Assembly (NCBI GenBank): GCA_013416795.1
Contig: RQSC01001337.1
Span: 16,864-55,898, forward strand
Reading direction: 5' to 3'
DNA length: 39,035 bases
From: Prasinococcaceae sp. CCMP 1430
Taxonomy: Eukaryota; Prasinodermophyta; Palmophyllophyceae; Prasinococcales; Prasinococcaceae
The position numbers and the translations under genes were made by a program. The notes under the pieces were generated by a model. That model saw only the letters and a program-made list of their open reading frames with translations. It ran no database searches and was not told the DNA's origin. This document shows positions 1-21,345 of this stretch, in pieces. Numbering within the stretch: position 1 is the stretch's first letter; each line of letters opens with the position of its first letter.

Positions 1-3000
1 GGGCCGCGCCGCTCGGGCCGCGTCGCGCTGTCCGCCGCGGCCGAAGCCGATGCCGCCGCGCCGCGGCCCAAGCGCCGCAAGAAGACGGCCGCCGGCGGGG
101 ACAGCGACGACGAAGACTACGACCCCGGCGCGGCGGAGGACGCGAACGGAGTGATAGTGCTCGACGACAGCGACGACGAGGACGACGCCGACTTCGTCGA
201 GGAGGAGGCGCCCCCGACGGGCAGGAAGCGCCGCACGCCCGCGTCGGCGAAGAAGGAGCGGGCCGCCAAGGCCAAGGCACAGAAGCAGGCGGAGAGGAAG
301 GCCGCAAAGCAGACGGCGGCCTCCAGGCGCGCGAGCGGTGGGAGCGCGGCCGACCCCGTCGAGATTGGCGACAGCGACGAGGGCGACGCGCCCGCGGATG
401 ACCCCCACGCGCTCTCGACGGCGCTCGAGGGCGAGCTGGGCGTGACGGCGCGCTCCGGTGGGCGAGCCGCCGCCGCGACCTGCGGTCCGCCGCCGCAGGC
501 CGAGCAGCCCAAGGACCTGCTGCTGCCGCTGCTGCCCTTCCAGCGCGAGTTCCTCGCGTGGGCGCTGGCGCAGGAGGCCGGCGAGGTCAAGGGGGGCGTG
601 CTGGCCGACGAGATGGGCATGGGCAAGACGCTGCAGTCCATCGCGCTCGTGCTCTCCAATCGGGGCGAAGTGGGTGCGGAGACCCAGGGCGCGTCCACCA
701 GCGCGGGCCCGGCGGCGACCAAGGGCAAGGGCAAGGGCAAGGGCAAGGCCAGCGCCTTCCCGGTGCGCAACCCCACGCTGGTCGTGTGCCCGACCGTCGC
801 CATCATCCAGTGGCGCGGCGAGATCGCGCGCTACGTGGCGCCCGGCGCCGCGAAGGTGCTGCTGTGGCACGGCTCGACGAAGACGCTCGACCCCGACGAG
901 TTGCGCTCGGCGGACTTCGTGCTCACCACGTATGGCACGCTCGAGGCCGAGTACCGCAAGCATCTCATGCCTGAGAAGGTCACGTGCACGTGGTGCAACA
1001 AGAAGTACTACCCGGACAAGCTGCCCCTGCACCTCAAGTACTTCTGCGGGCCCATGGCCGAGCGAACGGCCGCCCAGGCCAAGCAGGAGCGCGGCGGTGG
1101 CCACGGCGATGACGACGACGAGGGGGGCGGTCGCAAGGGGAAGAAGGTCAACTGGGCGCGTGCGACCTCCAAGGCCGAGAGCGCCAAGCTTGAGAACATG
1201 ATGAAGCGGGCGGCGGCGCGGGCGGGGCTTGAGGTCAAGGGCGACGCCGAAAAGGGCAAGGCCAAGGGCAAGACCAAAGGCAAGGGCAAGGCGGCGGACC
1301 CGAAAGGCAAGGGCAAGGCGAAGGGCAAGCGCAAGGCCGACGAAGCGGACGAGGACGACGATGACGACGAGGACGACCCGGTCAACAAGGCGGTTATGGA
1401 CCTGCTCGCGTGCGCGGCCAAGGTGGCGGCGCGCGCGCCCGTGAACGGCGGCGGGGACAGCTCCAAGAGCGTCATGCATTCGGTGCATTGGCACCGCGTG
1501 ATCCTCGACGAGGCGCACGCCATCAAGGACCGCTCGTGCAACACCGCTCAGTCCGTCTTCAACCTGCGCGCCACCTACCGCTGGGCACTCAGCGGCACGC
1601 CGCTGCAGAACCGCGTGGGCGAGCTCTACTCGATCGTGCGCTTCCTTCGGGCGGACCCGTACGCCTTCTATTTCTGCAAGAAGTGCGCCAAGGAGGGCAA
1701 AGAGTGCAAGAGCCTGTGGGAGATGGGGCCCGACGGCAACTGCCGACACTGCGGCTGCCACAAATTCAACCACTGGTGTTGGTGGAACCGCAAGGTGTCC
1801 AACCCCATCAAGTACCACGGCTACGCGGGCAAGGGGGCGGACGCCATGAACCTGCTGCGCGACGAGGTGCTGCCCGCCACGCTGCTGCGGCGCACCAAGG
1901 CGCAACGCGCGGACGACCTGGCGCTGCCTCCGCGCCAGACGGTGGTCCGCCGCCTGGCGATGGACTCGCGCGAGAAGGACTTCTACGAGGCGCTCTACAC
2001 GCAGTCGCAGGCGCGCTTCAACACGTTCGTGTCGGGGGGCACCGTTCTCAACAACTACGCGCACATCTTCGATCTGCTCGTGCGCCTGCGGCAATCCGTG
2101 TGCCACCCGTATCTGGTGGTGCACTCGGCGACCAACAGGGCAAGCAGCGAGGATGCGGACGCCGCGGCGGCGCCCAGCGAGAGCGCGCCTGCCGCGCTGT
2201 GCGGCATCTGCTACGACGCTGCGGACGACCCCGTGACCACGGCCTGCGGCCACGCCTTTTGCCGAGCGTGCATCCAGGGCATGCTCGAGATGCACGCGTC
2301 GCAGGCAGGTGCCGCCGGCCCTGCCAAGTGCCCCACGTGCTCCAACGCGCTCAGCGTGGACCTCAGCGGTGCGGACGCGGAGGACAGCCCCGGCAAGAGG
2401 GGGGGCAAGGGCAAGGCGAAGGCCGCACCGGCTCAAGGTGCGATGGGCGCTGGTGCTGCCGCGCGCGTGCGTGCGTGCGCGCTTGCGCCCTGGACCACTG
2501 TTTGCTGACTCGCGCGCTCTGCTTGGTCCGCATCCGCACGCGTGGCCGTGCGCCCCTTAGTCGCGTCGAGCGGGCGCGCGCGCAAGTCCATCATGACGCG
2601 CGTGGGTGCCACGGCCTTCCAGAGCTCCACCAAGATCGAAGCGCTGCGCGAAGAGCTCTTCGAAATGAAGCGCATCGACCCGAGCGCCAAGGCGATCGTC
2701 TTCTCGCAGTTCACGTCCATGCTCGAGCTCATGCAGCACCGACTGACGCTCGCAGGGCTCACGTGCCTCCGCCTCGATGGCAGCATGTCGCTCAAGAAGC
2801 GCGATGAGGCCATCGACCGCTTCACGAACGACCCGGACGTCAGCGTCTTCTTCCTCAGCCTCAAGGCTGGCGGCGTGGCGCTCAACCTCACGGCTGCGAG
2901 CCACGTCTTCCTGATGGATCCTTGGTGGAACCCGGTGCGTGTGCGCGCGCTTGTCCGCCGCGCGTGCGCGACGTCGTGCGCGGAGCTTGGTTCGCTGCTG

Positions 3001-3403: not shown

Positions 3404-5114
3404 TCACTCGCAGCACGCCTCCGCGACCACGTTGAGGGCAGCGCGCAGCTGGCGCGCCGCCGGGAACGACATGTCGCGCGGAACGCCCACGCGGTCGCGC
3501 AGGTAGAGCGCTGAAGCGACGGCCGCGTCGCCCGGTAGGGAGGCGGCCGCGTTGCCGGGGCGCACCGCTGCGGCGACGCCCGCGGGTGAGGCGTGCGTGC
3601 CGACGGTGCCGTCCGCGACGTCGGTGCCCGCGCCCTTGGCTGCCGCCGCGAGCAGGACGGCCGTCGCGTGCCGCAGGGCTGCGTCCGCGGCCCCTGCCTG
3701 CGCCTCGCTCGCGCCCCTCACATTCGCGCGCGGGTCGCACAGGCGCGCGCCCACGCCGCCCATGCCACTACCCGCCGCACCGCGCAGGGCAAACTTCGCC
3801 ACGTTCGCGTGGTTTCCCAGCAGCGAGCGTGCAGCTTCGAGGCGCGCGGCCACCGGGCCGCCTCCGGCGACGCCGCTGACGTCGCTCGGGTACACCAGGG
3901 CCTCCTTTGTTACCCCCACGAGCGCCGAATGGCCCTCCGCCTCCGCTCCCGCGGTCAGCTGGCCCCAGCCGAGCCCGGCACCGTCCACCTCGTCCCTGTA
4001 CTTCGCCCCGGCGTCGACGGCCGCGCAGCCGCCCAGCTGCGGCGGCAGGTCGTGCACGTGCGTGTAGTAGTCCGACTTCTGTCGACGATACGTGTCGCGC
4101 GACTCCATCGCCTCGAACCAGGCGTTGATGGCAGGCCAGCGGCCGTCGTCGCGGCCGCGCACCACCATGCCTTTGTAGTAGGGGACGCTGGCGGCGATGC
4201 GCTCCAGGAAAGGCGTGAAGGCAAGGTCGACGTAGCTGATCTCCTCGCCCAGGAAGTAGGGCCCCGCGCTCACGACGGTCAGCGCATCGTTGGTGGCGTC
4301 CATGACGTCCTCGAAGTCCTCCATCCCTTGCTCGTGCGCCCAGCCGCTCGTGAGCCACTGCAGCCACCTCCCGAAGAGCTGGCGCTCCAGCTTGAGCATC
4401 TGGTCCGCCAGCGCGCGCTGCTCGCTGCCGGGCGGCGGCAGCATGGGCGACTTGTCCGGAAAGGCCTCTTCGATCCTGCGCATGATGACGTCCGACTCGG
4501 TGACCAAGCGGCCGTCCAGTTCCATGACGGGCAGCATGCCGGAGGGCACCTTCGCCAAGAAGGACGCGGGCTTGTCGCCGTAGCAGCGCAGGGGCGCCTT
4601 GATCACGCGGTAGGAGATGCGCTTCTCCTCGAGCTGCAGCCAGACCTTCTGGCAGTACGGGCACCAGGCGGCGTGGTCACGGTACAGCGTGACGCGCACG
4701 TCTGACTCGCTGTCGCCGTCGAAGAGCCGCAGCATCGCGCGCGCCGAGAGCGGTCCGCGCGCGTCACCGTCGGCGTGCCCACCACCGGCCCCGACGCCCG
4801 CGGCGGCCTCGACGGCCTCGAGCGTGGCCTGGAGGTCGTCCCACGACGCCTCGGCATCGGCGATCGCTGTGGCTGCGTCGACGCCCGCGGGCGTCGCCGC
4901 GGTTGCGCCGCGAGCNCGTCTGCGCGTGCGTGCGTGCGTGCGTGCGTGCGTGCACTTCTGCCTCTGTGTGCGTGTGTGCGCGCGTACGCGCGCGCGAGCG
5001 CGTGTGGCGCCGCGCGGCGCGTGCCAAGCACGCCTGCGGCGCGCGCTTTTTCTCGGCTGGGGTTTCGGGCGATTTAATTTGGAAAATTATTTTGTTTCGT
5101 GCGTCAGATCGCAT
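3404..5114 (-). CDS. Glutathione S-transferase-like protein with glutaredoxin-type CPYC motif
   Basis: Main exon 4919-3404; a short 5' exon 5114-5032 is proposed because its GTGCTT donor and phase join cleanly (532 aa in total), but its AT-rich sequence could instead be promoter. After a leader containing SWDDLQATLEAVEAAA comes a GST_N thioredoxin fold with WCPYCQKVW, KVPSGMLPVMELDGR and TESDVI, then a helical GST_C domain containing GPYFLGEEISYVDLAFTPFL. The CPYC pair suggests an omega/DHAR/glutaredoxin-like redox enzyme rather than a conjugating GST. Plant and algal plastid proteins share this leader and these motifs, from memory of the family. The C-terminal third is an Ala-rich extension ending in LRDRVGVPRDMSFPAARQL, which looks conserved rather than random. 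Cellular location is unknown; the leader may be a transit peptide. One ambiguous base (4916) lies in codon 2-3 of the main exon. Confidence 0.75.
4916..4916. other. Ambiguous base or collapsed assembly gap
   Basis: A single n lies at the edge of the GST-like gene's intron, next to a TGCG tetranucleotide repeat. It may be one uncertain base or a placeholder for missing repeat sequence. Confidence 0.9.
4920..4953. repeat. (TGCG)n microsatellite in an intron
   Basis: About eight TGCG/CGTG units run without interruption, inside the proposed intron of the GST-like gene (4920-5031). Similar CG/TG-rich strings mark many introns in this window. Confidence 0.85.
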
Positions 5115-12247: not shown

Positions 12248-12283
12248 CACGCGTCGCTCTCGCGGAACGTCGCGGAAACGAGC

Positions 12284-15200
12284 ATGGCCGCCAAGGCCGC
12301 ATCGGAGACGGTGCTGGCGCGCGCCGAGGCGGAGCTCACGCAACTGCGCAGCGAAACCGCTGCGCAGGCAGAGGAGCTCGGCAGGTTGCGCACAGAGCGC
12401 GAGCACCTCACGGCGAGTATGGCCGAAGCCACCGCCGCCGCAAACGAGAGTGTGGCCGCCGCGCGCATGCAGGTGTCAGCGCTGACGCGCGAGCTGGAAG
12501 CCGCGCTGAAGGAGCGCGAGAGCGAGGCGGCGGCAAGCGCGGCCGCTGGCGCGCGTTCGAAGGGCCAGCTTCGCACCGCGCGGCAGGAGCTCGCGCGGCT
12601 CGATGCGTCGCTGCGCGCGAGCGAGTGTGAGCGGTCCTCCGCGCAGCGGAAGCTCGCCATCGTCAGCTCGCAGCTGGAGGCGCTGCTGGCAGATGAGGCG
12701 ACCTCGCGGGCCGAGGTCGAGCGCATCATCGCCGCGCTGCGCGCGCAGGTCGAGGAGAGTCAGACGCAAGGCGCTGCTGAGAGCAGCCGAGCCGCCGACA
12801 GGATCGAGGAGCTGGTGCGCGCCAAGGGAGCAGCCGAGGAGGCCCTGACTGCTTGCAAGGCCCAGGCCAGTGCCGAGCTCGCGAGGACAAAGGCAGACAT
12901 GCAGGCGGCGCACGAGGAAACGAAAGCGGAGGTGACCGCTGCGCGCAACGAGGCTCGGCGCGCGCGCGAGGAGGGTGCGTCCATGTCCGCCAGCTTTGCC
13001 CACCGTAACGCGGCCGCCGACGAGACCCTGCAGCGCTCCATGGATGGGCGCCTCGCGCTGGAGGCCCGGTGCACAAACCTTGAGGCCGAACGCGCGCGCT
13101 CGGCAGCCCTCGCCGATACCGCGAAGAGAGAGGCCGATGCCGCAAAGCGCAAGGCCGACGATGCAATGCACCGCGCCGAACAGTATCAGAATGATCTTCT
13201 CGCTGAGCGTCGCGCGCGGCAGGAAGAGGAGCTGCGGCGCCCGAATCCAGCCGAACTGTTCGATGCCGACGCGGTCGAGGCGCGAGTGCGCGCCGCCACC
13301 GCCGAGAAGGAGCTGCAACTAAAGGTCGCGCACATGGCCGAGCTGGCGACCACACGCAATGAGCTCGAGGCGCTCGTCCAAGAGAGGGTGAACGAGGCGC
13401 TCGAGACTGCAGGTGAGCGCCACGCGAAGGAGCTCCAGGCGGCCGAGGGACGCGTGGAGGAGGAACGCGCGCGGGTGCAGGAGGCGCACGACCGCATTGC
13501 GGAGGAGGAAGAGCGTGGGAAAAGGGGTCTGGAGGAGCTCCGCGAGCAGGCGAATGGGGAGCTCGATGCGGCGCGCGAGCGGCTGGCAGCTCAGGCAGCG
13601 ATGTCTGAGGAAAAGCTTGAGGTCCAGGCAAAGGCTTTTGAGGAGAAGCTGTCCGTTGCTGCCGCGGCGAGCTCAATCGAGCAAATTGAGCTACGCGACA
13701 CAAGGAAGGCGCTTGCGGACGCGCGGAGCGAGAACGTGCACCTGCGAGCGGAAGTTGCGAGCGTCACGCAAGCGCTCTCGTCTCTCGAAACGAAGTACGC
13801 GGAGAACACCTCGGCGTTCAAGGGGGAGTGCGCCGAGCAACGAAGCGAGCTGCAGCGGACGCGCAAGGAGGCACAGGAGGTTCTCGAACGCACGCGCAGT
13901 GTACTCGAGGATGACATGGCGCGTGTGCGCAAATCCCACTCAAGCGAAGTCGCGCGCGTGCGCGCTGATCACGCGGACGAGCTTTCACGGGTGCGCGATG
14001 AGATGGCCGAGCTGCGCGAGGCACTGGAGAGGGCGCGGCAGAGCGCGGAAACGCAGCGGAAGGACTTCGAGGCCGAGCGCAAGGTGATCGCCGCAGATGC
14101 CGAGGCAAAGGCGACGCACCTTCTCGAGGAGGCCGGCGAGAGGGAGGCGGACTTGCGTTCAGAGCTCAAGCACGCCAAGACGCAGCAGACTAGCGATGAG
14201 CTTACCAACTCGCAGCTATCGACGCAGCTCAGTGAACAGTTGGCCAAAACGCGCGAGGCGAAGGCTGAGGCTGACACTTTGAAGGCACGCAACAAGACGC
14301 TCGAGGCTCGCCACGTTCGCACTTCGAAGGCCCTGATGAAACTGAATGCTGGCATCGTCATCCAGCTCCGAGAGCTTAAGGCGCAGCTCGCCGAGCTCGA
14401 GAGCACGGTCCAGATTGAGGTCACGCGCGTCATGGCAGACTTTGAGCGGCAAATGGACGCCTTCAAGTGGACGTACAAGGGCATTCTCGAGCGCGAGACC
14501 GCTGATGCGGGAGAGGACGCACAGAGCGCCGCGCGCGACGCTGTGGCGTCCCTACGAGCACGCCACGAGCAAGAGACTGCCGAGTGCAAGGCCGAGTTTC
14601 ACCGCGCGATTTCCACCGCCACAGACGCGTTGGTCGTCAAAGAGAAGGAGCTCGAGGAGCTGCGGAGAGACTTGGATGTCCACAAGCTGCGCGTTGCGGA
14701 GTTTGAGCAGCGTGAAACCAGCCGTGCGCCTATGGATGAGAGCGTCAAAACGCTCAAGACGCAACTTCACGCCTCGGAGATGCAAGTGACTGAGCTCACG
14801 CGCTCGTTGGAGGGGAAGAACGAGTGCGTGGCGCTGCTTGGAACGGTGGTTACATCCTACTTCGAGGTGCCGGAGTCTTACGCGGAGAGCCTGAAGTTCG
14901 CCACCGACCGCACCGCTTTCATGATGGCAGTGCAATACCTCGGGCAGCGCATGGGCGAATCGGCCGATCAAGCATCTAAGGGCAAGGGGGTGGACAAACT
15001 CAAAGAGCGCGTGCTGGAGCTCTCAGAGGAGAACGCGGCCCTGCGTACGCGCGCTACAGTGCTGGAGGGCAAAGTCGAAGTGGCGACGCTCGAGCACGAT
15101 CGTGAGCTCGGGGCCGCGCGCGACGCGGCCGCTGCGCACATGGAAAATGTGCTCGCGGAGGCGCGCGAAGAGTGGCGCGGCACCTTGCTTGCGATGCGCG

Positions 15201-15307
15201 GCGAGCTCGCGGCGCTCGATAGCTCCGTCGCCATGGTTGCCGCGGAGGCGGCTGCCGAGGAGGTGGACGTGGCTGCGCAGGCCGTCTCTAGCGATGCACT
15301 AGCATAG
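12284..15307 (+). CDS. Long coiled-coil protein, function unknown
   Basis: An intronless 1007-aa frame starting at the ATG at 12284. Almost the whole length is heptad-like, rich in Glu, Ala, Arg, Lys and Leu, with very few Pro or Gly, so a long parallel coiled coil is expected. A less charged patch near residues 680-740 (RELKAQLAELESTVQIE, RQMDAFKWTYKGILERE) and a short non-coiled segment around residues 850-890 (CVALLGTVVTSYFEVPESY, FMMAVQYLGQRMG) break the coil and could be a conserved anchoring or binding site. No signal peptide or membrane segment is seen. Such proteins are often golgins, centrosomal, basal-body or tethering factors, but nothing here singles one out. Confidence 0.85.
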   Translation: MAAKAASETVLARAEAELTQLRSETAAQAEELGRLRTEREHLTASMAEATAAANESVAAARMQVSALTRELEAALKERESEAAASAAAGARSKGQLRTARQELARLDASLRASECERSSAQRKLAIVSSQLEALLADEATSRAEVERIIAALRAQVEESQTQGAAESSRAADRIEELVRAKGAAEEALTACKAQASAELARTKADMQAAHEETKAEVTAARNEARRAREEGASMSASFAHRNAAADETLQRSMDGRLALEARCTNLEAERARSAALADTAKREADAAKRKADDAMHRAEQYQNDLLAERRARQEEELRRPNPAELFDADAVEARVRAATAEKELQLKVAHMAELATTRNELEALVQERVNEALETAGERHAKELQAAEGRVEEERARVQEAHDRIAEEEERGKRGLEELREQANGELDAARERLAAQAAMSEEKLEVQAKAFEEKLSVAAAASSIEQIELRDTRKALADARSENVHLRAEVASVTQALSSLETKYAENTSAFKGECAEQRSELQRTRKEAQEVLERTRSVLEDDMARVRKSHSSEVARVRADHADELSRVRDEMAELREALERARQSAETQRKDFEAERKVIAADAEAKATHLLEEAGEREADLRSELKHAKTQQTSDELTNSQLSTQLSEQLAKTREAKAEADTLKARNKTLEARHVRTSKALMKLNAGIVIQLRELKAQLAELESTVQIEVTRVMADFERQMDAFKWTYKGILERETADAGEDAQSAARDAVASLRARHEQETAECKAEFHRAISTATDALVVKEKELEELRRDLDVHKLRVAEFEQRETSRAPMDESVKTLKTQLHASEMQVTELTRSLEGKNECVALLGTVVTSYFEVPESYAESLKFATDRTAFMMAVQYLGQRMGESADQASKGKGVDKLKERVLELSEENAALRTRATVLEGKVEVATLEHDRELGAARDAAAAHMENVLAEAREEWRGTLLAMRGELAALDSSVAMVAAEAAAEEVDVAAQAVSSDALA

Positions 15308-15522: not shown

Positions 15523-18500
15523 CTAGTCGCCTTGCTCACCGATCGAAAAGAGCCGGCGCAGGTCCTGTGTTCTCGCCTTGGCGGCTTCCGCGGGGGACAG
15601 CTTCCGCAACGCCCCGGAGCCGATAGCCGCCTTGGCCTCCTGCAGCTCCAACAGCTTCTCTTCGAGAGTGTCCTCGGTCACTGCGCGCCCGCGAGGAAAT
15701 ACGTCAGTGTGCGACCGGGGAGCGCCGAGCACGCTTTGCGGCGTGAATGGCTTGAGCGGCTAAGCGCCGTGCGCGCGCGCGCCCGAATGCGAAGGGCGCT
15801 GCATCAGGGATGACGCACCGAATCTCGTGACCGTGACTGGGAGCGTCTGCCCAAGGCGATGGACTCTATCCCAGGCTTGCGCTTCCACCGCCTCGTTCCA
15901 CCACAGGTCCATCATAAACACCCGATTGGCCGCAGTGAGGTTGAGGCCTTGTCCGCCAGCACGCGTAGAAACCAGCAGCACGCGCGCAGTACCGTCTTGC
16001 AGCGCATGCATCGCGGCTGCACGCTGTTCGGCAGTGCGCGAGCCATCGATGCGCGCCGTGGTCCAGCGCTCGGATTTTAGGCTGGCCTCAATGATGTCCA
16101 AAAAGCTAGTGAACTGGCTGAAAACCACAGCCCGCTTGTCAGGCCCCTCCGCACGCATGCCTTCTAGGCACTCGAGAAGCGCCGCGACCTTCGGCGGCGT
16201 GGTCTCGCTCGCCGCCGGAGGGCCTTCTGCTCCCGTCCCCGCCCCAGCGGAGCCGTCGTTGGCCACGCGTCGCTTCTCGAGCTCGGCAATAGATAGCAGG
16301 TCGCCGAGGCGGAAGTCCTGCCGGCACATTGGACAGCGCGCCGTTTGCTGCTTGCGGCGCGGGTCGACGTCCATGACTCTCATGATACAAGGCTTGCAGA
16401 ACGAGTGGGAGCAATTTCGCAAAATCCGAACCTCAACATCGGACTGCGGCTGCAGACAGATGGCGCACTCGAAGTCATCCTCGCCGTCATCGAGGGCGCT
16501 CTTAAGCCGCGTAAATAGGTTTGCTACTTCCTCTTTGGAGAGATCCGGGGCTCCACCGCTCGCGCGGCGTGCCTTACCTGCAGCGGCGAGCATTTTTGCC
16601 GCAACGTCCAGGCGCTCGGGAGGCACCAAAGAGCGCGCGCAGCACGCCTGGCGCAGTCGCATGATGCATTCGAGAATGGACATGTAGTGCTCTGTCGCAG
16701 TGCCCAACTCAATCGCAGCGGCGATGGCCACCCTCGCGCTGTCGAAGAGCGTCGAATAACTTTCGCGGTGCGGCGGGTCGAACACAACCTTCTGGACGAC
16801 GATGGTCTTTGGAGGCAGTTCAGCTCCCAGCACGCTCTTCGGCCTGCGCAGGCTGATGGTCTTAAGCAGGAGCCGCAGGCGCGCCAGTCCGGCTCGGTCA
16901 CCTTCGCGGATCGGGCGCGCAACCGCGCGATTGAAGATCTGAGGCTCGTTGAGTGGCTGAGCTCCAAGGAAGGCCAGAACGCCGTACACATCCCCCGCGC
17001 TGTTCTGAATCGGCGTTCCAGTGAGCGCCCACCGCAGGCGGGCGTGCAGGGCACAGACCGCCTTGAAAGCCTTGGTTTGCCTGTTGCGTACAGTATGCGC
17101 CTCATCGAGAACGGCTCGGTGCCAACGCACGGACAGAACGCCTGGTGGTGGCGCCGGCTTTGCGCCGAGAGAGCACGCGTCCAGGTAAGCCTCGTGGTCG
17201 GCCAGCTCTCCACTGAGGGTGCTGTACGAGGTGATCACCACGTCAGCTTCGCGCAGCCTAGGCGCGAGCGCATGCCTGCCCGGTCCGTGCCAGACCACAA
17301 CTGTCAGAGTACCGTGAGCGATGTGCTCCTCTATCTGCGTCGCCCAATTTTCCAAGACGGACACAGGCGCGACGATCAGCGTGCCTCGGGCACACGCAGC
17401 GGCTGGGGCTGTCGTAAGCCGTTTGGCCCTCCCCGTGCTTTGAGCGCTCGTCTTTCGTCGCTTTGCCGTCGGCTGCAGCTCCCTAAGCCGCGGCGCTACA
17501 GCATTGCCAGCGTAGAGCGCCGCCGTCCCCCCCGCCGCGTCGAGCGCGGCCCACGCACGCGCGGCGAGAGCGTCCTTGTTCCCGGATTTGCTCACGCACG
17601 ACACTACACACAATTCGCGTAGCTGATTCACCTTGAGCAAGAGCAGGTCACGCTCTGTAGAGAGCGCGCGTCCCCACAGTTCTCGCGCACGGTCAAGCAT
17701 CTGCACCCACGTTTTGATGAACGGGGCATTAGACTGACACTCAGATGCACCCTCGAGGAGCGACGCCGGCCCACCAACCTTCGCGAGGGCAGCCCACGCG
17801 CGCGCGGCCAGAGCGTCCTTGTTGCCAGACTTTGACACAGCCGACACCTGACAGAGCGTGCGAAGTTGCGCCAGCGTGAGTGCAGTCTGAAGGTCGCACG
17901 AGTCGGATGCCACTCGTCCACAAACCTCGCGTACTACTGAGAACATCTCGCGCCATGTGCTGGCAAATGCGGGCGCAAAATTCGAAAGAGCCAGCTCCGA
18001 CGAAGTCGTGGCAGTGGGCACAGGGGCATCTTCTTCGCTGCCCTTCGCGTCTGCGATAGCAGCAGCGTGACCAGGAGTCTGAGCGGCTTCGCTCAGAGTG
18101 GCCGAGGGGCACTCGTAGACCACACCTGTGGGCGGGTTGGACAGAATGACTGCAAGCGTTTGTAAGGTCTTGCCGTTGCCCATGTCGTCTGCGAGGAGAC
18201 CTCCAAATACCGGCGATGGCCGCGCTGTGGTCGAGGTACTGGTGACAGAGTTGTAAAAAACCTGCCTGCCCAACTCTAGTCGCTCTTCAAAGAATGTCGG
18301 CAGGACGCTCGGGGCCTGCCGCTCGCGTGAGAGCATCCAAGCAACGCCTCTTTTCTGGTGCTCTCGAAGGGATGACGTGAGTTGCGGGGGCTCGACGAAA
18401 CTGTCGGTGGATGCGCCCTCCTGCTCAGAAGCCAGCTTGTCGAAGAGTTCATCCAGTTCCCTTTGAGCACGGGCAGGGTTGAACTCGTACGAGACGCCCA

Positions 18501-19653
18501 AGGCGCCGCGCCCGCCGCCGCCCTCGGTGCTATCATATGCGCCGCTCCCGCTCGGCCCGCCGGGCAGTGCCGCGCCCCCCCTCCGCAACACATGGCCAGC
18601 CAGCCGTAGATTTTCCACAACCCACGACATATCGCCCGGCGTCCCGTACAGCGCGAGCGTGACGGGCATCGTGAAGATATTGCTCAGATCTCGCGGGATC
18701 GTGGCCTCCACCCGCGGCCCCCCGGACGCGGTATGGTCCAAAATCCGGCGCAGCGCCGCGGCGGTGCCGCGCTTGATGTGGCCAACCTGCTTTCCGTCGA
18801 AGTTATCCACGCGGACGGCATTCGGATCATACGGATTGTTCGGCTCTCTGACGAGGGTGACGTACTCACCCGCGTGGGCAATGCCCTCATAGTATCGGCA
18901 GCCTACCACAGCCGCTTCGAATTGCCCGTAGAAGACCTCGCGCGAGAACTCATCCCCGAGGTCGTCTGCAGCCATATGCTGCGTCTCGTTGACGGCGGCA
19001 TCCGCCCGCGCGCTCACGCCTGCAGCAAGCGCGGCAGGCGCAGGCGAGCGTAACGACGCCGAGGGCGGCAGAGCTGCGGGCGCAGGTGCAGGTGGCTCCG
19101 CAGGCTCCGCGCCAAAAGTGAGCGAGGAGCATTGGGGCGACCGCTGCCGTATGGCCTCGCGGATGGACGAGGGCAGCCGCCCGTACCCTGGATGTTGGCC
19201 ACGCGGAGCGCGCGCGTGTGCGAATTAGCGCGAAGGAGAGGCAGTGACATCGCGTGCGCGATCGAGAGCGTGTTCGCACGCATCGCACGCACCCTCGAAG
19301 TTCTTTGGGTTGCCGTTGCGGTGGCACGCAAAGTGCCGCCATTGGAAGTACTCGCCCCAGTCGCCATGCGCCTTCAGCAGCTCGCGCAAAAAATGGCGCC
19401 AGCGGTCAGCGTCGGTGCGCAGGGACGCCGTATGTGCGTGCGTGGCGGCGTTTCCACCCTATGCGTGCGCGCGTGTTTGTGTAGGTGTGCGGGGCGGTGT
19501 GGGATGGGGTAAGGGAGGGAACTCGCACAGCGTGCTCCCGGCCCCGCTACGCACCTCAGTGCCCACGCGCACCGAGCCGCGCGCAATATTGGACCCGCAC
19601 GAGCGGCAGCGCGCGCGGCCGCTCGCCGCGAGCTCCACGCGCTTGCGTGGCAT
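15523..19653 (-). CDS. RAD5/HLTF-like SNF2-RING ATPase with PARP-type zinc finger, HIRAN and two SAP-like repeats
   Basis: Four exons: 19653-19555, 19380-19293, 19187-15819 and 15680-15523; all junctions are in phase, giving 1237 aa. RAD5/HLTF proteins remodel stalled replication forks and polyubiquitinate PCNA. Domains: a PARP-type zinc finger (about 5-75) with VELAASGRARCRSCGSNIAR, WRHFACHRN and FEGYGRLPSSI; HIRAN (about 144-255); Walker A ADDMGNGKT (about 395-403); an insert with two SAP-like repeats (about 497-530 and 578-611), each containing SKSGNKDALAARAWAAL; motif Ia TLIVAPVSVLENW (about 665); DEAH in VLDEAHTVRNR; C3HC4 RING beginning CAICLQPQSD (about 970-1017); helicase C lobe with VFSQFTSFLDIIEASL and DRVHRLGQ; and the family C-terminus TLEEKLLELQEAK, reached only by splicing 15681-15818. 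The zinc finger spans two introns, so gene prediction could miss it. Head to head with XRCC2. Confidence 0.88.
17540..17897 (-). repeat. Tandem 243-bp in-frame repeat encoding SAP-like motifs
   Basis: Two copies offset by 243 bp (matching blocks start at 17549 and 17792) lie within the RAD5/HLTF-like gene. The protein copies share an identical 17-residue block SKSGNKDALAARAWAAL. The surrounding sequence has diverged, so this is an old intragenic duplication. The pattern L-x3-QLR-x-LC then SGNK then LxAR fits the SAP DNA-binding motif. Confidence 0.75.
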
Positions 19654-20110: not shown

Positions 20111-21345
20111 ATGCACGGCTCGCAGCGGCCCGGCCAGCAATCTGCGCAGCGAGCCACGCATGAGGCCCCATCGCAGCAGCCCACGCAGCAGCGGGCGCAC
20201 GCGCGGTTGGCGGCGCTGGCGAGGCCCGATGAGACCCTAGCAGATGCTAGGCGGCGAGCAACAGGTGTGTGGCACGCCCGTTCGTGCGCCCACAAAAACG
20301 AAAACATCATCTCGCCGGGACAAGCGCGTGGCGCTGTGCGCCGCAGCTCGGGCGGCTCGAGTGTGTGTGGGCGTTCACGCGCACCCCTGCGGCTGACGCT
20401 TCTGCGCACACTCGTGCATCACCAGCCGCGCGGCGGCCGCTTCCGCGCACGGGCTTGCCTTTTATCGACGGCGCTCTCTCGGGGGGTCTTCGCCCCCACG
20501 ACGTGCTGGAGATTGTCGCCGACGCGGGGAAGGGTGGCGCAGGCACCGGGGGAAAGGCGCGCGCCAGCTCTGCGCTCGGATCTGCGGCAGACTCGGCTGC
20601 GACGGCCTCGCTGCTGCATGCGGCGGCGGCCGCCGCCGTCGCTGGGGTCGTCTCGGTGTACATCGATTGCGCGGGTCGGACGGGTGCGACCTCCGTGGAG
20701 GGCGCCGTGCGTCGGAGGCTCGCGGAGGTTGGCGCGACGCACCTCTCCACAAGGCGCGTGACCTCACGCGTGCTCATGCAGCGCTGTCACAGCTCTGCGG
20801 CACTGCTGCTCGCGCTCAAGCGCCTGCCGCGGGTGGTTGCCGACGCCGAGGCGGTGCACGGCGAGGGCTGTGTCCGCATGCTGCTCATCGACTCGCTGGG
20901 CGCGTTCTACTGGACGGACCGCGCGGCGGCCGCGAGCGGCACCAGCGCGGCGGCAGCGCCCGGCGGCGGTGGCGCATACTTTCCGAGCGCCCAGACCGCT
21001 GCAGCAGCGCGCGCGTTCCCGCCACTTGCTCTCCACTCAATTTATCCGGCGTTGGCTCGAGAAGTGGGCGAGGTCGCCCGCATGCTTCGCCTTGCCGTGC
21101 TTGTTTCGCGTGTGGCCGTCTTCGCACGCAAGCAGCGCGAGATCGAGGGGGGTGCTCTTTACGCGGAGTACCTGCCGACACGCTGGCAGGAGTGCGTGTC
21201 GCATAGGCTAGTCATCAGCGAGACCGGCAGCGGGCCGGCTAGCGACGGCGACCAGGCGTACGTGGCGTCGTGGGAGCGCCCGACCCGCCTGCCACCGCGG
21301 CGCTTTGCCTTCGATGACCTTTCTGGGGCGGTGCGCATGCGCTAG
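20111..21345 (+). CDS. XRCC2: XRCC2, RAD51 paralogue for homologous recombination
   Basis: Two exons, 20111-20264 and 20426-21345, give 357 aa; the join is in phase. XRCC2 belongs to the BCDX2 RAD51-paralogue complex that promotes RAD51 filament formation and fork protection. The core begins TGLPFIDGALSGGLRPHDVL. Walker B is typical of XRCC2, LLIDSLGAFYWTDR (about 204-217), and the family motif EYLPTRWQECVSHRLVIS follows at about 299. The Walker A region reads GKGGAGTGGKARAS, where the final GK is not followed by S or T, so it looks degenerate. ATP binding by human XRCC2 has been reported to be dispensable, so this need not inactivate it. The N-terminal 50 residues are Gln/Arg-rich and not conserved; the start there is the only ATG that splices in frame. 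Confidence 0.87.

Follow-up and report, generated by a model that had tools for sequence, protein, structure and literature searches.

Human HLTF joins a HIRAN domain with a 3′-OH-binding pocket to an SNF2 ATPase whose two lobes are separated by a RING finger, and carries a long basic insert between ATPase motifs I and Ia in which we know of no SAP motifs. Its motif I reads GLGKT, the usual form in the family, and it is without a PARP-type zinc finger. Yeast Rad5 (K. lactis, PDB 6l8n) has the same order of domains and likewise no PARP-type finger, but its HIRAN is of a different type. Two further E3 ligases offer partial likenesses: SHPRH is an SNF2-RING protein with an accessory domain placed between motifs I and Ia, and RAD18, of the same pathway as HLTF, is a SAP-carrying RING protein with neither an ATPase nor a HIRAN domain. 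The fingers of PARP1 (finger 1), DNA ligase III, and AtZDP form one CCHC family that binds nicks, gaps, and DNA ends, and the enzymes that carry them are a polymerase, a ligase, and a 3′-phosphatase. In animals, PARP1 and HLTF are separate proteins at stalled forks.

In the alga Prasinococcaceae sp. CCMP 1430 (genome, 24.5 Mb), a finger of this family appears to sit instead on an SNF2 remodeler. The genome codes for green-type chlorophyll a/b proteins, in line with a small green alga. The gene is predicted on the minus strand (19653-15523) of the window, the 39,035-nucleotide stretch of DNA analyzed here (68% GC), as four exons (Table 1). All introns have GT-AG borders and the frame is kept at each join, so that the exons reproduce exactly the 1237-aa splice-corrected product proposed in the first-pass annotation. 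Pfam searches of the spliced protein confirmed the proposed domain order of PARP-type finger (zf-PARP), HIRAN, SNF2, RING, and Helicase_C, and this profile check, suggested in the first-pass annotation, did not refute the proposal. SNF2 (230.3 bits) aligned, with an interruption, across residues 339-915; RING covered residues 969-1018 (28.7 bits; cut-off, 27.3), and Helicase_C covered residues 1062-1175 (76.4 bits). The ATPase motifs, the RING, and all zinc ligands are intact by sequence, and motif I reads GNGKT, in contrast to GLGKT or GMGKT in the genome's other RAD5/16-group proteins. A separate scan of the genome in six frames, which made no use of the gene model, placed zf-PARP at 19546-19635 and HIRAN at 18661-18930, detected no second HIRAN anywhere in the genome, and returned an SNF2 match at the locus; given this agreement, we regard the finger and the remodeler as real and correctly placed. 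The ADP-ribosyl transferase domain (PF00644) had no Pfam match in the protein, and the two matches in the genome lie elsewhere.

Table 1. Features of the HLTF-type gene (window positions; residues refer to the spliced 1237-aa protein)
Feature	Position	Strand	Remarks
Exon 1	19555..19653	-	start Met and first finger half, residues 1-33; ligands Cys16, Cys19
Exon 2	19293..19380	-	second finger half, residues 34-62; ligands His49, Cys52
Exon 3	15819..19187	-	finger tail GYGRLPSSIREAIRQ, HIRAN, SNF2, insert, RING, most of helicase C lobe
Exon 4	15523..15680	-	C-terminal end of helicase lobe (VTEDTLEEKLLELQEAKAAIG...) and stop
zf-PARP			residues 7-57; 42.4 bits on whole protein (cut-off 39.3)
HIRAN, HLTF type	18661..18930	-	residues 149-232; 69.2 bits
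SNF2 lobe 1, first part	18142..18360	-	contains motif I ADDMGNGKT, 18192-18166
Insert between motifs I and Ia	17392..18141	-	about 250 aa
Repeat unit 1	17761..17967	-	N-terminal helix and SAP-like motif; SAP match 17883-17800
Repeat unit 2	17515..17721	-	N-terminal helix and SAP-like motif, about 17640-17557
KRRK basic cluster	17452..17463	-	possible nuclear localization signal (putative function)
SNF2 lobe 1 and linker past insert	16630..17385	-	motif II DEAH, 17106-17095
C3HC4 RING finger	16321..16470	-	CAIC ... CSHSFCKPC ... CPMC
Helicase C lobe	15850..16191	-	motif VI QAWDRVHRLGQ

A RING between the two SNF2 lobes together with an N-terminal HIRAN places the protein in the Rad5/HLTF subfamily, and its best whole-protein relative in the PDB is K. 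lactis Rad5 (6l8n; E, 2e-73). The earlier label, RAD5/HLTF-like, therefore holds for the subfamily but not in the sense of a yeast-type Rad5, since the HIRAN domain is of the HLTF type. Compared with the PDB, this domain matched human HLTF chains only (E, 8e-24) and not yeast Rad5. It shares 45 of 111 aligned residues with human HLTF, keeping all of R71, Y72, Y73, N90, N91, Y93, D94, and H110, with R in place of K113. In HLTF, Y72 and Y93 make stacking contacts with the bound dinucleotide, and N90 and N91 have been studied by mutation (PMC4666394), whereas the HIRAN of yeast Rad5 keeps 2 of the 10 HLTF contacts to single-stranded DNA and shows no 3′-OH preference (PMC7804152). Because the HLTF pocket is kept here and Rad5 retains only those two contacts, 3′-end binding is predicted more strongly than for a Rad5 protein, and the residues expected for the binding of 3′ ends, as previously suggested, are in place. 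Our best reading is that the protein is the alga's single HIRAN-bearing HLTF ortholog, a PCNA-directed fork remodeler and E3; like human HLTF, it would thus be a likely ligase for PCNA and would be predicted to reverse forks.

The zinc finger resembles those of PARP1 in ligand spacing and probable DNA contacts. The N-terminal 107 aa gave zf-PARP at 48.0 bits (cut-off, 39.3), with C16, C19, H49, and C52 as the CCHC ligands, and the closest solved chains are those of PARP1, finger 1 giving the best single-finger matches, followed by DNA ligase III. Conserved DNA-contact residues of the second PARP1 finger (F2) include Ser120, Arg122, Lys134, Arg138, and Trp157 (PMC3094755); their equivalents here are Ser11, Arg13, Arg25, Arg29, and Trp47, and Ala10 stands in place of F2 Lys119. 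Elsewhere in the genome, PARP-type fingers are found in a PADR1-bearing PARP1-like protein on contig C37 and in a candidate protein combining DnaJ-like, PARP-type finger, and BRCT segments in adjacent frames (C76:263500-269000, positions 3793-2527 of that interval, minus strand), which scored 25 bits for the finger and 31.5 bits for BRCT.

A search of the open literature found no paper naming a PARP-type zinc finger together with SNF2, and related searches there did not turn up the fusion. Unremarked copies in other algae are nevertheless quite likely. Searches of viral and prokaryotic collections with the main exon, the finger, and HIRAN yielded no more than three distant viral SNF2 matches; because these collections contain no algae, the result says nothing of how frequent the fusion is. 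It is plausible, if short of probable, that many green algae or other protists share the fusion and that it is simply an ordinary, lineage-typical architecture that has gone unremarked in print: domain shuffling is frequent in the HLTF-type SNF2 group, and the DnaJ-finger-BRCT candidate suggests that PARP-type fingers move between proteins in this very genome, although the silence of the open literature on any pairing of finger and SNF2 argues the other way.

The first-pass annotation also drew attention to the splitting of the ATPase between motifs I and Ia. The insert is present, with 261 residues from motif I (ADDMGNGKT) to motif Ia (TLIVAPVSVLENW) as against about 43 in the alignment of yeast Rad5, but such a split is normal in this SNF2 group: the corresponding slot spans 48 residues in a RAD16-like protein of this genome, 199 in an SHPRH-like protein, and 305 in a CHR27-like protein (L019), where the names RAD16-like and CHR27-like are our own reading of the sequences. 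The SHPRH homolog (L020; C59:358479-361958), in which SHPRH_helical-1st scores above its cut-off, carries a PHD finger inside the slot rather than SAP-like cargo and has no HIRAN in the pieces examined. As a split ATPase is ordinary in the HLTF/SHPRH group, the SAP-like cargo alone is distinctive, and the motif I-Ia slot may be viewed as a site where different proteins of the group take different modules (PHD, SAP-like). The window holds a second SNF2-RING protein (1-2508, plus strand), RAD16-like by its zinc-binding insertion FYFCKKCAKEGKECKS...CRHCGCHKFNHWCWWN, which lies inside a 6456-aa open frame on contig C47.

The cargo of the insert consists of two repeats of ~70 aa, offset by exactly 81 residues and about 55% identical over 75 aa, with SKSGNKDALAARAWAAL common to both. 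Their local alignment score of 173 compares with a best of 68 among 2000 shuffles, and the synonymous changes that separate the copies indicate that the duplication is not recent. The repeats proposed earlier, and their offset, are thus real; their assignment to SAP is less firm, as the insert as a whole reached 23.0 bits over two stretches with the SAP profile (PF02037), under the cut-off of 23.9, and structure prediction lent it no support. Single copies scored 14.6 and 13.3 bits against the same cut-off. A prediction for the insert from its single sequence had a mean pLDDT of 42, too weak for use; a model of one repeat from a two-row alignment placed helices at 35-47 and 53-66 around SKSGNK, at a mean pLDDT of only 60. 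In view of the sub-threshold score and the poor structure predictions, we call the repeats SAP-like. They may not be SAP at all; a helical repeat specific to the lineage, serving structure or protein binding in the manner of the family-specific elements by which HIRAN is packed onto the motor, is an alternative that we take seriously while leaning against it. Consistent with such an origin, and in addition to the low SAP scores, Foldseek gave no significant fold match for the repeat model, a profile of the repeat compared with the PDB returned no solved SAP chain and nothing else of use, and the only other example of the unit in the genome is an assembly copy on contig C105. Against it, the two copies align with one and the same part of the SAP profile (positions 4-31), their predicted layout of helix, loop, and helix is that expected of SAP, including glycine and lysine where they should be at the end of the loop (SKSGNK; compare PMC9399289), and the basic KRRK cluster follows the repeats.

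The finger is divided among exons 1, 2, and 3, and the joins between these exons are predicted. Three in-frame acceptors are candidates for exon 2 (19380, 19371, and 19459), and all of them bring the finger above the zf-PARP cut-off (48.0, 46.8, and 42.1 bits, respectively), so that the identity of the finger does not depend on which is used. PARP-type fingers have 26 to 37 residues between the second and third ligands (PMC3094755). This spacing would be 29 residues with acceptor 19380 and 26 with 19371, but 55 with 19459, a TAG site that we disfavor because it falls outside the published range and that also has the lowest finger score, even though the extra codons it adds look coding-like. 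Acceptor 19380 is preferred, and 19371 is also possible. Exons 1 and 2 together gave zf-PARP at 47.7 bits, rising to 49.5 bits with the exon 3 tail GYGRLPSSIREAIRQ, which carries the match to profile position 71; this gain lends modest support to the predicted join of exons 2 and 3. At the other end of the gene, exon 4 is in register with K. lactis Rad5 in the alignment. Codon scores are similar in exon 1 (-0.08), exon 2 (+0.10), and the start of exon 3 (-0.09), and non-coding-like both in frame ahead of the ATG (-0.46) and in intron 1 (-0.59). Intron 2, however, is coding-like in one frame (+0.08); for this reason we treat the codon test as supportive only, and for the same reason a product retaining intron 2 may exist. 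With its score above the Pfam cut-off, its PARP1-like spacing, and its unbroken frame, the PARP-type finger first described, and its predicted coding over three exons, are supported.

These data also bear on whether the finger exons could form a small gene of their own or belong to a minor isoform, with an ordinary HLTF starting within exon 3 as the main product. Exon 3 is indeed open upstream to 19224, exons 1 and 2 are short, and the preferred acceptor of exon 2 (GAG) belongs to a weaker type than the CAG acceptors of introns 2 and 3. We nonetheless find this arrangement improbable, for exon 1 alone or exons 2 and 3 alone would encode an incomplete domain, whereas the three exons together make up the finger, with the exon 3 tail raising its score; the codon scores of exons 1 and 2 look coding-like, no join breaks the frame, and the ATG at 19653 is the first of its frame. 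It is very improbable that the assembly has joined unrelated pieces, since the only N in the window are at 4916 and 33099, outside the gene, the reading frame is unbroken from end to end, and the finger is <350 bases away from exon 3, even if the assembly does hold one chimeric copy of part of the locus. That copy (C105:478-1446), which at first appeared to be a second gene with motif I and SAP in one frame, is a truncated assembly copy, 969 bases long and 99.9% identical to window positions 18765-17797; the start of its contig (C105:1-7000) is chimeric, with single-N joins and an exact 1076-base internal repeat, and copy-number claims from this assembly accordingly need care.

Taken as a single chain, the protein is likely to be the alga's HLTF-type fork remodeler and E3, bearing an N-terminal PARP-type finger and two SAP-like modules and acting much as outlined below; our doubt is mostly over the SAP-like units and the predicted splice joins. 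From domain function we infer break sensing, fork remodeling, and PCNA ubiquitination. HIRAN would capture the unwound 3′-OH end at a stalled fork or gap, while the PARP-type finger would grip a neighboring nick, gap, or double-strand end and the SAP-like modules would contribute duplex or single-strand contacts beside the motor. Translocation by the ATPase would then regress the fork, and the RING, with an E2 of the Ubc13-Mms2 type, would lengthen ubiquitin chains on RAD18-marked PCNA. The finger may in this way add gaps and nicked duplex to forks as substrates. A bolder proposal, which we consider doubtful, is that the protein is a one-chain postreplication repair factor whose PARP-type break sensor, 3′-end reader, two SAP-like modules, fork-remodeling motor, and PCNA ligase are physically coupled, so that recognition of a break or gap directly triggers fork reversal and PCNA chain formation, bypassing the separate PARP1 signaling of animals. 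A natural fusion of finger and remodeler would imply that both recognition steps belong together on one DNA structure, and it would offer a single chain in which the coupling of 3′-end capture, gap recognition, and PCNA ubiquitination can be tested.

Two proteins of the pathway in which it would act have counterparts in the genome. A separate RAD18-like gene on contig C115 has a RING exon and a distinct SAP exon, with a RAD18-like stretch at its end, and PCNA keeps the acceptor lysine (equivalent to K164) within TKDGVKF. In the window, the downstream neighbor of the HLTF-type gene is a 1019-aa open frame (12248-15307, plus strand) rich in coiled-coil-like sequence, whose Fez1 match is sub-threshold. 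The divergent upstream neighbor (20251-21345, plus strand) had weak PDB matches, all of them to chains of XRCC2 (E, 0.003), a RAD51 paralog, and it may share with the HLTF-type gene a promoter region no longer than about 1 kb.
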